This document shows, one piece after another, positions 8,548-44,569 of a stretch of DNA of 46,752 nt. How positions within the stretch are numbered: the first letter of the stretch is position 1; every line of letters starts with the position of its first letter. A program made the position numbers and the translations under genes. The notes under the pieces were generated by a model. That model saw only the letters and a list, made by a program, of their open reading frames with translations. It ran no database searches and had not been told where the DNA came from. The stretch comes from an uncultured Pirellulaceae bacterium (GTDB lineage: Bacteria > Planctomycetota > Planctomycetia > Pirellulales > Pirellulaceae), in NCBI GenBank assembly GCA_938010615.1, contig CALLUY010000107.1, forward strand, positions 1-46,752, given 5' to 3'.

Positions 8548-8600
8548 TGCGGTGACGAACCAAAACCATGCAATCGGCCTACCAAAGCGTGCACGCTTTA

Positions 8601-8799
8601 AGTCACGAAGTGACGACATGCATTAGCCATGGACGCAAGTCCGTGGTTACGGTTAATGAATCGCCGCAGAGTGCCGAAGACACGGCAGGAGCCAAGCTTT
8701 GCACTACCGCAATTTTCCTGCCGTCCTTTCAGGACTGCCGATTAATGCGTCAACGTTTCCATGGACTTGCGTCCATGGAAATGCCGTGCTTTCAGCACT
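8601..8799 (+). repeat. Dispersed ~200-bp hairpin repeat, copy A
   Basis: A non-coding repeat also present at 16051-16264 (same strand) and 42285-42488 (opposite strand). It is a string of short perfect hairpins: GTCAC-GAA-GTGAC, CCATGGAC-GCAA-GTCCGTGG, GTGCC-GAA-GACAC, then GTCCT-TTC-AGGAC, CCATGGAC-TTGC-GTCCATGG and GTGCT-TTC-AGCAC. The second half is roughly the inverted version of the first. In this copy one stem (GTGCC/GACAC) is imperfect where copy B is perfect. Confidence 0.8.
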
Positions 8800-8808
8800 A
8801 AACACGGC

Positions 8809-8832
8809 CACAAGCCAGAGGCTTATGCCACC
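8809..8832. repeat. Half copy of the GGTGGCATAAGCC palindrome
   Basis: This matches one arm of the repeat found complete at 29336-29437, 31455-31556 and 39093-39164 (core AGCCAGAGGCTTATGCCACC). It directly follows the 200-bp repeat. Confidence 0.65.
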
Positions 8833-14697: not shown

Positions 14698-15984
14698 ATG
14701 CGTTTTACTATTCTGCTCGCTGCACTAGCGGTGTTGTTTGGCCACACTTTCGCCGCCAACGCTCAATCGAACTCGAAAGTCATCAAGGCTTTTGATGCGG
14801 GATTCAAAACGCCCGACGACTTCGATACGGTTTACCAATTTGTGCTGCCATCGGACGACGACACGACTTGGCGACAAGTCCCGTGGATTCCCAGTCTCTG
14901 GCAAGGCATGCAAATCGCGGGGAAGAAGAACAAGCCAATGTTTATCTGGGCGATGAATGGTGATCCGCTGGGCTGTGTCTGAAACAATGGAGTTACGGGC
15001 CGTGCGTCCGGATTTGCCAATCAACGCGTCATCGACATCCTGAATGAGTCTTTTGTTCCCGTCGCGATCGACATCAATCTCGTGCAGCACCAAAGCGATT
15101 CCGAGGGGCAATTCTTCCGGCACATCGCCGAACAGGGCCACTACGCTGGAATGACAAAGCCGGCTCCAACTCGTCAGGGGCTCTACGTGACAGGAGTCGA
15201 TGGAGACCTGCTTCATTCGCTCAACGCCACCGAAGCAAAACAAATCCTGAGCTTGATGGGACGAGGGCTCGCCAAGTGGGAAAAGAAACAGAGCGGAGCT
15301 GCTCGTATCGCTCCGCTTTATAAGTCGAACAAGGCTGATTCAAAGTTCGCGACCGACTTTCCGACCGATGGATTGATTCTCCGTCAAACGATGAGAGATT
15401 TGCCGAGCAGTTCCAATCCAAGACGTGATACTTCGCGGCACAACTTCGATCACGTCTGGTTTACAGCCAAAGAGAAAGCCGATTTCACGCCAAAGAAGAT
15501 GGAAGTCGGCGAGACATGGGAGGTTCCATCGCAAACGGTGAAGCGCCTTGTTGCTTTCCACACCGTTGATCAAGTTCGTGGTGAAGCGGACGCTTGGGGA
15601 TGGGAAGCTGTCAAAGAGGCTTCGATTCAATGTCGCGTTGTTGACATCGCGAAATCCAAAGTGTTGATTGAGCTATATGGCAATGCGAAATGCGTGAAGC
15701 CTCCGTCTGGCGAGATAAACCCGTACAACAACAAGAAGATCGAAAAGGACATCACGAACGATCTACGAATTAGAGGTGAACTGCTCTTCGATTCCGAAGC
15801 TCGCAAGTTTCAATCGTTTCGCTTATTGGCTGCCGGAATGCGAAGTGGAGCCGCGACGTACAACTTTCGATTCGACGATATGGGACCTTCGCCGATTGGT
15901 TTCGCATTTGAGCTACTCGATGACAAACCTGAAAATCGCATCAAGCCCAAGTTTCTTATGTGGGAATACTTCTGGGAAAAGTGA
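14698..15984 (+). CDS. Candidate selenoprotein: secreted thioredoxin-like protein with in-frame TGA (GCV-U)
   Basis: Reads as one 428-residue protein if TGA at 14980-14982 (codon 95) is selenocysteine. The N-terminus is a signal peptide (MRFTILLAALAVLFGHTFAANAQ). Next comes a thioredoxin-like segment, KKNKPMFIWAMNGDPLGCV-U-NNGVTGRASGFANQRVIDILNESFVPVAID, so the TGA falls at the active-site position after Cys93 (CxU). The frame continues without a stop for 333 codons, with domain-like sequence to the end (TKPAPTRQGLYVTGVDGDLLHSL). From memory of the family, homologues carry Cys here. A hairpin with CGUGC loop lies 14-28 nt after the TGA. An annotation program would split this into 14698-14982 and 15082-15984. 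The alternative is a nonsense mutation. Confidence 0.8.
14996..15010 (+). promoter_or_regulatory. Candidate bacterial SECIS hairpin 1
   Basis: CGGGC (14996-15000) pairs with GTCCG (15006-15010), including one G-U pair, around a CGTGC loop starting 19 nt after the TGA. Bacterial SECIS loops lie within about 16-37 nt of the UGA and carry a conserved G/GU at the tip, so position and loop fit. The same loop occurs in the second candidate at 44315-44319. Confidence 0.6.
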
Positions 15985-16050
15985 TTCGACTTCTGACGTC
16001 ATTTTTACCGATACACGCCCGAAGCGTAAGTTTTGAAGTTGCAAACTTTC
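15985..16050. other. Short gap before the dispersed repeat
   Basis: This holds the motif TTTTGAAGTTGCA, also seen near other repeats (16326, 24402, 42270). No gene is seen. Confidence 0.4.
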
Positions 16051-16264
16051 AGTCACGAAGTGACGCCATGAATTAGCCATGGACGCAAGTCCGTGGTTAG
16101 GGTTAATGAATCGCCGCAGAGTGCCGCAGAGTGCCGAAGGCACGGCAGGAGCCAAGTTTTGCACTACCGCAATCTTCCTGCCGTCCTTTCAGGACTCACG
16201 ATTAATGCATCAACGTTTCCATGGACTTGCGTCCATGGCTAATACATGCCGTGCTTTCAGCACT
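16051..16264 (+). repeat. Dispersed ~200-bp hairpin repeat, copy B
   Basis: Same order of small hairpins as copy A (8601-8799). This copy has GTGCC-GAA-GGCAC perfectly paired and carries a 10-bp internal duplication (GCCGCAGAGT twice, near 16111-16130), which explains most of its extra length. The ends are AGTCACGAAGTGACG and GTGCTTTCAGCAC. Confidence 0.8.
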
Positions 16265-16399
16265 AAATACTGTAATTTCAAAACGCCTAGGCGAGGTGCA
16301 GCGGGTACCTCGCTCACGCGCTTTGAAGTTGCACATTTGAGACAAGATTTCGCATTCTAATTGATAAAACACGTGAAAATTGAAAAAGCGAAGCGTTCC

Positions 16400-25350: not shown

Positions 25351-26511
25351 ATGTCACGTTTCGAGCGCATGACTTTCGATCCCGTTTGCGATTCCGATTC
25401 AGGCGGTACGTTTATCAGTTGTGACAGTTGTTCCAATTATTTCACTGCATGCCTCGCTCGTTCCTTCGAGTTCATTGGTTTCCGCCGTGAAATGGCTCAC
25501 TCATGTTCAACAATTCAGCATCCAATGCCCGCCCGCCTAACTACCCTCCAGAAGAATCTACGGAAATCGATCGTGAGCAACTTAAATTCCATCCTGACTG
25601 AAGCATGGCGTCTAGGGACTGGACCATGGCGGAATTTTCGCATGCAAAAAATGCGATCTGAATCGAAGGTTCCGACCTTCATCCTGTTTTACCATCGCAT
25701 CGCGGATACGAATCCGAATCCATGGTCGATGACATACAGCCAATTTGAGAAACAGGTTCGCTGGCTCCAGCAAAACTTTGACATCGTGTCCTTGGAAGAA
25801 ACCCAACGACGAATCCAAAGCGGATCCAACACGCGGCCAACGATTTCGATTACTTTCGACGATGGCTACGCCGAAAATAGCGAACGAGCTTTGCCACTAT
25901 TGCTCACCGAAAACATTCCGGTCACGTATTTCGTCACCACGCAAAACATTCGTCAGCAAAAGCCTTTCCCTCACGACGTAAAGGATGGCGCTGCACTTCC
26001 TGTTGACACGGTCGAGTCGATTCGTGCCATGGCAAACGCAGGAATCGAAATCGGTGCTCACACGAGAACACATCCCAACTTGGGTCCGATCAACGATCCG
26101 CATGTGATCTACGACGAAGTCATCAGCGCCACACGGGATCTGGAAGACATCATCGGCAAGAAGGTGAACTACTTTGCCTTCCCGTTTGGACAGCACTCGA
26201 ACTTGAGCGTAGACGCTTTCCAGTTGCTATTGCAGCACGGCTTCAAAGGAGTCTGCTCTGCGTATGGTGGTTGGAACGATATTGGTGGCGATTCGTTTCA
26301 CCTTCAACGCATCCATGGCGATCCAAACTTCACTCGCATGCGCAACTGGTTGACTTACGACCCTCGCATTGGAACCGCCGAACGATACGACTACTCAAAA
26401 ACCAGCCAGAGTATCGATTGGTCGACTTGGCAACAAGAAAATAATCTCGACGTAGCCGATCAACCAGAGAACAAATCGAACATCCTGCAAACAGAATCAA
26501 CAAAAGGTTAG
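25351..26511 (+). CDS. Polysaccharide deacetylase (NodB homology)
   Basis: Up to 386 residues. The NodB domain begins near residue 105 (VPTFILFYHRIAD) with the catalytic/metal motif ITFDDGYAENSERALPLL, and HTRTHPNLG gives the two zinc-binding histidines (HxxxH). A later block is YFAFPFGQHSNLS. The family removes N- or O-acetyl groups from surface glycans. The first 100 residues are not conserved in character, so the true start may be ATG 25492 or 25525 rather than 25351. The stop lies 2 bp before the next gene, forming an operon with the GT4 enzyme. Confidence 0.88.
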   Translation: MSRFERMTFDPVCDSDSGGTFISCDSCSNYFTACLARSFEFIGFRREMAHSCSTIQHPMPARLTTLQKNLRKSIVSNLNSILTEAWRLGTGPWRNFRMQKMRSESKVPTFILFYHRIADTNPNPWSMTYSQFEKQVRWLQQNFDIVSLEETQRRIQSGSNTRPTISITFDDGYAENSERALPLLLTENIPVTYFVTTQNIRQQKPFPHDVKDGAALPVDTVESIRAMANAGIEIGAHTRTHPNLGPINDPHVIYDEVISATRDLEDIIGKKVNYFAFPFGQHSNLSVDAFQLLLQHGFKGVCSAYGGWNDIGGDSFHLQRIHGDPNFTRMRNWLTYDPRIGTAERYDYSKTSQSIDWSTWQQENNLDVADQPENKSNILQTESTKG

Positions 26512-42272: not shown

Positions 42273-42284
42273 GTTGCAGTGTTT

Positions 42285-42488
42285 AGTGCTGAAAGCACGA
42301 CATGCATTAGCCATGGACGCCAGTCCATGGAAACGTTGGTGCATTAATCGTCAGTCCTGAAAGGACGGCAGGAAAATTGCGGTAGTGCAAAGCTTGGCTC
42401 CTGCCGTGCCATCGGCACTCCGCGGCGATTCATTAACCGTAACCACGGACTTGCGTCCATGGCTAATGCATGTCGTCACTTCGTGACT
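42285..42488 (-). repeat. Dispersed ~200-bp hairpin repeat, copy C (inverted)
   Basis: Reverse-complement copy of 8601-8799 and 16051-16264. It begins AGTGCTGAAAGCACG and ends GTCACTTCGTGACT. One stem differs (CCATGGAC-GCCA-GTCCATGG loop) but all hairpins stay paired. It occupies the space between the convergent membrane-protein and PanB-like genes. Confidence 0.8.
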
Positions 42489-42588
42489 GAAAGCATGAAA
42501 CAAAAACTTGGCAATGGAAAACACAAGCAGCTTCACCTCCCCAGCCACTCGTTCCTCGCGTCTGACCCTCCCAGAGGGATGCCGGTGT

Positions 42589-43580: not shown

Positions 43581-44483
43581 ATGTCACACAAATCAATCTT
43601 CAACGTCATCACGATCGCAGCCATTTTACTTTCGTCGTTCTCTGGTCAACAATCGATTGCCCAAGAAGCCGCCGTTGCTGCAACTCCTGTCCCCGTCCAG
43701 TCTGCGGTTATTTTGGCACCGACGAACTCGCGAATTAGCTTCGTCGGAATTCACGTCGGCGACGACCCAAAACCGCGACTCGGTGGCTTCGCCGATTTCA
43801 ACGGCTATGCGGTTGTTGATCCTGCCAACGGAACCGTTAGCTCGCTGAATTTGGATATCAACGTCGACTCTGTTTGGACGCAGTTTGAAAAACTCACCGG
43901 ACATCTCAAGAATGAAGACTTCTTCGAAACGGAAAAGTTTCCGACGGCAAAGTTCGCCAGTACTTCAATCGCGGCTGGCGAAAATGGAAAGTCCACCATC
44001 ACTGGAAATTTAACGCTGCACGGCGAAACGAAAGAAGTCTCTTTCCCGGCCGATGTGAAAATGGAAAACGGCGGAATGCTGCTCAAAGCATCATTCCAGT
44101 TGGACCGCTCGATCTTTGGCATGGACAAGATGCTCAGTGGTGTTGATAAACTAGTCAAAGTCGAAATTGTTGTCGGCGAGAAAACGGCCCCTTCGAAAGC
44201 GGAGCCCGGTCATGGCGGGAAGAAAAAGAAACAGTCCAGCACGGACAACTCAAACAAGCTTCAAAAAGTATCGCTCAACGTTCCAAACATGAGCTGAACT
44301 GGCTGCGAAGCTTCCGTGCGAAGCGATTTGAAAGCTGTTGACGGGGTCCGGAACATTGAAACCGATCTCGATGAGCTAACTTGTTCGTTCGAGATCGATT
44401 CGGGCGTCGACGCCGAAGAACTAGTCAACCGACTGGCGGAGAAGAACAACAAGCTGGCCGATTGGACTTTTGTTGAGAATTAG
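43581..44483 (+). CDS. Candidate selenoprotein: YceI domain fused to a heavy-metal-associated domain with UxxC
   Basis: Reads as 300 residues if TGA at 44295-44297 (codon 239) is selenocysteine. Signal peptide MSHKSIFNVITIAAILLSSFSGQQSIAQ. Residues about 45-200 are a YceI lipocalin-like domain (ISFVGIHVGDDPKPRLGGFADFNGYAVVD ... HLKNEDFFETEKFPTAKF ... LTLHGETKEVSFPADV). After a basic linker (GHGGKKKKQSS) comes an HMA fold: KVSLNVPNMS-U-TGCEASVRSDLKAVDGV, then DELTCSFEIDSGVDAEELVNRL. HMA domains bind metal with MxCxxC; here the first Cys is replaced by the TGA. The frame continues 62 codons to TAG 44481. A hairpin with CGUGC loop follows the TGA. The open frame begins at 43386, but the signal peptide sets the start at 43581. 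Confidence 0.82.
44310..44324 (+). promoter_or_regulatory. Candidate bacterial SECIS hairpin 2
   Basis: GCTTC (44310-44314) pairs perfectly with GAAGC (44320-44324) around CGTGC, the same loop as at 15001-15005. The loop starts 18 nt after the TGA, within the range for bacterial SECIS elements, and the hairpin lies inside the coding sequence as required. Confidence 0.65.
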
Positions 44484-44495
44484 ATTTCGGCAAAG

Positions 44496-44569
44496 TAGGG
44501 CTGGAGGGACTCGAACCCCCGGCAAAGAAATTATGAGTTTCCTGCTCTAACCAACTGAGCTACAGCCCC
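44496..44569 (-). tRNA. tRNA-Met (CAT anticodon)
   Basis: The reverse strand folds as a tRNA: acceptor GGGGCTG with CAGCCCT (one G-U pair), D arm GCTCAGTTGGTTAGAGC, anticodon arm with loop CTCATAA (anticodon CAT), T arm GGGGGTTCGAGTCCCTC. The sequence around the anticodon resembles the elongator tRNA-Met, and the acceptor does not show the mismatch of an initiator. The CCA end is not encoded. It is on the strand opposite to the selenoprotein gene, 12 bp away. It could in principle be a tRNA-Ile2 (lysidine) species, which also has CAT. Confidence 0.93.

Follow-up and report, generated by a model that had tools for sequence, protein, structure and literature searches.

The question raised by this locus is whether a TGA codon lying within a gene of a planctomycete is read as selenocysteine (Sec) or simply ends the protein. 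The window is a stretch of 46,752 nucleotides from an uncultured Pirellulaceae bacterium (contig CALLUY010000107.1), and the gene concerned, at 43581-44483, would encode a YceI domain joined by a linker to a C-terminal heavy-metal-associated (HMA) domain, with the TGA as codon 239. An initial annotation, made from the letters alone, had proposed that an exported YceI carrier is joined here to a metal or redox site that contains selenium. The results below indicate, with a probability of about 0.88, that this is a genuine selenoprotein gene with a YceI plus HMA anatomy, and insertion of Sec at the UGA at 44295-44297 is very likely.

When the TGA was read as Cys, Pfam searches gave matches to YceI (PF04264, 111.7 bits against a gathering cut-off of 23.7, E-value 5e-32) and to HMA (PF00403, 39.3 bits against a cut-off of 24.8). 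As the initial annotation had claimed, the TGA falls inside the HMA match, where it stands in for the first Cys of the MxCxxC motif; the second, Cys242, is retained. The frame then continues for 61 sense codons through the HMA domain to a TAG. In A1, an HMA alignment of 43 rows, both chalcogen positions are invariant, that of Cys242 in all 43 rows, and the Met at -2 is nearly so; a copy outside A1, L036, has Arg at the second-Cys position. The AlphaFold2 model of the whole protein was modest (predicted local distance difference test, pLDDT, 68.6). In Foldseek searches it matched solved YceI structures with E-values down to 3e-11, and its C-terminal part matched HMA domains with E-values of ~0.007 or weaker and template modelling scores by target of ~0.7-0.8. 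The isolated HMA domain, modelled with the 43-row alignment, reached a pLDDT of 97.2 with a ferredoxin-like HMA fold, and its top Foldseek match was oxidised MerP (1osd, E-value 1e-4). A profile search against the PDB placed copper-ATPase HMA domains first and MerP after them.

Comparable genes were found in related genomes. A first search of 149 genomes of the family returned five other full-length fusions, with one TGA each, as well as separate HMA matches with one TGA. A profile from the six fusions was run over 241 family genomes, 14 of which matched at an E-value of 1e-60 or better; 11 of these, including the genome of the window itself (hereafter the own genome), have a full-length YceI-HMA fusion and three match over the YceI part only. 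Alignment at codon 239 bore out the initial annotation in that all 11 full-length fusions carry TGA, always in the same place within the HMA domain. In the tree the HMA domains of these fusions group in a single clade (support 95/82, from a short alignment in which the bootstrap had not settled), which fits one fusion event. The end of homologues of the YceI part is not fixed near codon 238: among 25 distinct YceI-only loci, 23 stop at query position ~201-226, one at ~235 (TAA, unrelated tail) and one at ~264. No HMA domain was found in frame beyond the terminal TGA in the four of these 25 loci that end in TGA. Three YceI homologues of the same genus (L231, L232 and L233, from G587, G573 and G576) have EF-hand-like repeats instead of Sec-HMA, one having been scanned by Pfam and the other two being similar by eye, and C-terminal metal-binding modules are apparently exchanged among YceI proteins of this genus.

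Purifying selection on the codons beyond the TGA is strongly supported by comparison of the coding sequences. Eleven pairs were compared after the TGA, with the synonymous rate (dS) not computable in two. Most of the differences lie at third codon positions. For the pair L023-L024 the differences at the three codon positions numbered 6, 1 and 23, giving a nonsynonymous rate (dN) of 0.049 and a dS of 1.44. The weakest pairs were L060-L074 (dN/dS values 0.104/0.189) and L054-L059 (0.41/1.20).

A hairpin with a CGTGC loop had been described shortly 3' of the TGA, and it was found as GCTTC-CGTGC-GAAGC at 44310-44324, with a gap of 12 nt from the TGA to the stem and 17 nt from the TGA to the loop. 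This element satisfies the loop (5 nt), stem (5 bp) and spacing (17 nt) rules of the bacterial selenocysteine insertion sequence (SECIS) model in PMC13188914. Its minimum free energy (MFE) was -5.6 kcal/mol in a 33-nt fold and -10.8 in a 45-nt fold, the published threshold being -7.5 kcal/mol or lower. For the wider comparison 47 motif-bearing HMA domains were kept after dropping duplicates and weak matches, with 40 further regions included; 40 of the domains have TGA and seven have Cys codons (four in the subfamily, three being other HMA domains). In the ungapped alignment of the 40 TGA rows, hairpin columns 16-20 pair with 26-30. There, 88.5% of the stem cells are paired and all five pairs show both-sided changes (28 such cells), giving a covariation score of 0.421 against 0.196 when shuffled, with none of 500 shuffles as high. 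Sliding the stem by 1-3 columns left only 31-47% paired. Watson-Crick stems of at least 5 pairs were present in 35 of the 40 TGA rows, against 5.3 expected and a maximum of 11 in 500 synonymous-codon simulations, and in none of the seven Cys rows. The MFE of -7.5 was reached by 32 of 40 rows with the fixed pairs forced and by 39 of 40 when any structure was accepted for the best sub-window. Among 21 further loci serving as test rows, three lack TGA and the 18 with TGA all form all five pairs, though some of these are close to rows already used, the HMA domain of L225 being identical to that of L025. The Cys forms L120 and L241 form two and one of the five pairs, respectively. In a SECIS model scan, put forward as a check by the initial annotation, model R1 gave the window hairpin 52.5 bits, but the window row is among the 40 from which R1 was built. 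Taken over the family, the role of the hairpin as a bacterial SECIS is strongly supported.

The Sec machinery, without which the initial proposal could not stand, was found in the own genome (4.7 Mb, 84% complete), with every component above its curated cut-off: tRNA-Sec (65.9 bits against 47, ARAGORN concurring), SelA (552 against 268), SelB (349.8 against 242) and SelD (262.6 against 125). Across the 149 family genomes, profile A1 matches 35 at an E-value of 1e-9 or better, a TGA match scoring more than 60 bits is seen in 31, and SelB is above cut-off in 77. These 77 comprise 29 of the 31 genomes with TGA-HMA and 48 of the 118 without (Fisher p 4e-8, overlap counted by hand). Among genomes with Cys forms only, G053 and G097 have no SelB above cut-off and G029 does. 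The TGA aligns with Cys in homologues, and a tree of 57 Sec and seven Cys rows requires five Sec/Cys label changes, at least four of them forced by starred branches, with many forks not resolved.

Several observations weigh against a selenoprotein of this kind and have to be set beside the above. The minimum-energy structure of a 51-nt fold of the window omits the hairpin, the folding z of the hairpin is +0.44, and taken singly it does not reach significance against synonymous-codon simulation (p 0.11 when only Watson-Crick pairs count, 0.41 when G-U pairs are allowed); the evidence for the hairpin therefore rests on the family. Within the family, the count of further pair types does not stand out from the shuffles (100 of 500). 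Allowing G-U pairs weakens the separation, to 39 of 40 rows against 26 expected and a maximum of 34, and gives long stems in two of the seven Cys rows. Of the 40 rows, 29 form the full set of five fixed pairs and 11 fall short, several of these having the stem in a shifted register. The L036 copy (G076) lies in a broken frame with TAG stops. The Fisher test ignores the relatedness of the genomes, and two genomes, G024 and G095 (78% and 84% complete), have TGA-HMA but no SelB above cut-off. Finally, no conserved operon was seen among 15 neighbourhood regions inspected by eye with crude scripted open reading frames (the TGA was located by pattern in 14 of them, L202 being the exception), and the ligand is therefore a guess from the fold.

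Table 1. Features of the YceI-HMA gene in window coordinates.
Feature	Position	Strand	Basis
Whole YceI-HMA selenoprotein gene (predicted), ATG to TAG, 300 residues, one in-frame TGA, probably exported	43581..44483	+	
Probable signal peptide, ~28 residues, end ...SIAQ	43581..43664	+	By-eye reading of translation
YceI domain, residues 46-197	43716..44171	+	Pfam PF04264; Foldseek 1wub, E. coli YceI 1y0g
Lys/Ser-rich linker	44172..44273	+	Translation; pLDDT <50 at residues 205-225
HMA domain, residues 232-287	44274..44441	+	Pfam PF00403; domain model; best Foldseek PDB match MerP 1osd
TGA codon 239, probable selenocysteine	44295..44297	+	Frame, alignment, 11/11 fusions
TGC codon 242, second half of UxxC pair	44304..44306	+	Conserved in A1
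Putative bacterial SECIS hairpin, 5-bp stem, CGTGC loop	44310..44324	+	Covariation; test rows; model R1

A tRNA gene lies directly downstream of the YceI-HMA gene on the opposite strand (window 44496-44569, -).

The Sec-HMA module is part of a wider set of exported-looking proteins that extends beyond the YceI fusion, as judged from their translations. By eye, 23 of the 40 TGA rows come from short lipoprotein-like proteins (with a signal, a Cys box and a linker of low complexity), six from YceI fusions, five from proteins with a helical or coiled region and four from domains of a tandem protein, two rows being partial. A second Sec-HMA gene is present in the own genome (contig C40, TGA at 25420). 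In the class, 23 of 397 genomes match, from five families, with 25 matches divided into 22 with TGA and three without; the family and class samples overlap. In the phylum 65 of 392 genomes match; only the two own loci and G460, from another family of the same class, score above 88 bits, and the rest reach at most 46.4 bits, eight of these weaker matches being flagged with TGA. The motif pattern applied to 12 phylum loci printed three, namely L090 (the G460 locus), L104 with Cys and L110 with MTU. L110 (G527, another family of the phylum) is a separate lipoprotein-like HMA protein with MTUASC and is possibly a Sec-HMA protein outside the class. One contig profile scan back-translates Cys only and is therefore blind to TGA forms; it gave 77 loci, of which L120, L171, L174 and L181 were examined and only L120, a lipoprotein-like protein of Pirellulaceae with Cys, was used. 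The tandem protein, L069 (G076:C92, ~1034-2390), is predicted as a single lipoprotein-like frame containing four HMA domains, each having an in-frame TGA and a hairpin in shifted register. It would thus hold four predicted Sec residues in one protein, compared with the two to three given for multi-Sec families in PMC13188914.

Two explanations in which no Sec is made were considered. TGA is usually a stop, it terminates four of the 25 YceI-only homologues, and the frame of the L036 copy also has TAG stops, all of which would suit an ordinary stop followed by a decayed HMA remnant. This was rejected as very improbable given the codon-position bias, conservation and covariation beyond the TGA, the presence of TGA in 11 of 11 fusions and the Sec machinery. 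A sequencing error, or a changed genetic code in which TGA is for instance Trp, is less probable still. Nothing was found in its favour: the TGA turns up again at this place in many separate genomes, tRNA-Sec and SelA, SelB and SelD are present, and decoding as Trp was rejected because homologues without TGA carry Cys at this position. If Sec is made, the UGA might nevertheless act as a selenium-dependent switch, giving YceI-HMA with selenium and a 238-residue secreted YceI without it, both of which would be used. The TGA does follow a complete YceI domain and linker, and YceI seems functional without Sec-HMA because its same-genus homologues have another C-terminal module and many YceI homologues have none. 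However, the same truncation in the lipoprotein-like Sec-HMA proteins leaves leader and linker only, so the place of the TGA appears to be dictated by the HMA motif and not by the need for a switch, which is considered improbable. An equally improbable but more sweeping proposal is that Sec-HMA, with its own SECIS in the coding sequence, is a portable export module that has become attached to exported carriers of unrelated kinds (YceI, lipoprotein-like linkers, helical regions and a four-copy tandem), and that in YceI-HMA the UGA would also be a selenium-sensing switch between plain YceI and a metal-capturing form.

Returning to the genuine selenoprotein, SelB and Sec-tRNA would decode the UGA as Sec, aided by the hairpin. 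The product would be a 300-residue protein, probably exported to judge by its signal peptide as seen by eye, in which a flexible linker connects a YceI barrel to a C-terminal HMA domain bearing Sec239-x-x-Cys242. Periplasmic MerP captures metal via CxxC. The Sec-Cys pair may likewise capture a soft metal ion (Cu+, Hg2+ or similar) outside the cytoplasm, Sec perhaps giving tighter or faster metal binding than Cys, with YceI as a carrier or a lipid- or quinone-binding body. This metal role, to which we would give even odds, is favoured because the chalcogen positions and the Met are conserved and, among solved structures, MerP and copper-handling HMA domains come closest. The pair could instead be a redox site (selenenyl-sulfide, peroxide or disulfide reduction) to which YceI brings a lipid or quinone substrate. 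Most uncharacterised selenoproteins are expected to be redox proteins according to PMC13188914, and the best Foldseek match of the HMA domain is MerP in its oxidised form, but the fold is HMA and not thioredoxin and the Met of the metal loop is retained, making a redox site possible but distinctly less likely. Of the initial proposal, the probably exported YceI fusion stands, the Sec-HMA part belongs to a wider set, and the site could serve either metal or redox chemistry.

Elsewhere in the window, the gene at 14698-15984 (+) encodes an exported-looking protein with a TGA at 14980-14982 and the motif GCVUNNG, and is probably the second selenoprotein of the window. Its protein gave a thioredoxin-like Pfam match below cut-off only (PF03190, 14.4 of 27 bits). 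A hairpin with a CGTGC loop follows this TGA if G-U pairs are allowed, and this is most likely the first candidate whose loop the initial annotation had likened to that of YceI-HMA. A repeat of ~220 bp occurs at window 8590-8811, 16040-16267 and 42279-42497, and also near tRNA-Sec and at other loci of the own genome. Rfam Acido-Lenti-1 matches face outward at both ends of two copies, and the repeat resembles a small mobile element, with the Acido-Lenti-1 'RNA' forming its ends.

Among known systems the nearest is MerP (TIGR02052; 1osd, 1afi), which has the HMA fold in common with the Sec-HMA model and the site motif MxCxxC. The window domain differs in having Sec for the first Cys and in scoring 30.3 bits against a cut-off of 92.55, and no mer operon was recognised by eye in the 15 neighbourhoods of Sec-HMA loci. 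The CopZ chaperones (NF033795, NF047957), which are cytosolic and free-standing, share the HMA fold and metal loop, with the window domain below their cut-offs (34.9 of 91 and 30.3 of 85 bits). Two families named as selenoproteins by NCBI have HMA-like parts, NF045683 (MerT/CopZ fusion-like selenoprotein) and NF041115 (metal-binding (seleno)protein), and the window domain is again below their cut-offs (26 of 375 and 26.7 of 95 bits). Its N-terminal domain is clearly a member of the YceI/polyisoprenoid-binding proteins (PF04264; 1wub, 1y0g), from which the protein differs by its C-terminal Sec-HMA and by 74.3 of 232 bits for the equivalog NF002994. No NCBIfam cut-off was passed by the window protein among 13 families listed or by its HMA domain among nine listed.

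The table of 119 families and subfamilies in the 2026 review PMC13188914 includes a UxxC ATPase, a metal-binding protein with UxxU (NF041115, with two Sec) and a MerT-type protein, and none of its entries joins Sec-HMA to YceI or a lipoprotein, in keeping with the initial annotation, which regarded YceI with such a site as probably undescribed. Closest in theme are the E1-E2 cation-transporting ATPase selenoprotein with UxxC (Table 1 of PMC13188914), which places Sec in heavy-metal transport but is an ATPase, and a MerP selenoprotein known from two metagenomic sequences of the Global Ocean Sampling (GOS) survey (PMC2398784), also a heavy-metal transport protein with Sec; beside these no YceI- or lipoprotein-linked group appears in the sections available of these two papers. 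Nor was one found in the titles and abstracts of the literature matches listed. For planctomycetes, PMC4807772 reports selenoproteins in two isolates, naming formate dehydrogenase and formylmethanofuran dehydrogenase, and the word stem 'planctomycet' is absent from the main text of the prokaryotic selenoprotein reviews PMC13188914 and PMC9312934. Standard gene prediction would probably truncate such genes at the TGA. To these known systems the Sec-HMA proteins would add selenoproteins that look exported and have a metallochaperone fold, forming a conserved group seen in five families of one bacterial class, and the repeated exchange of Sec and Cys at one HMA site on the tree offers a natural experiment on the role of selenium in a metal-binding loop.
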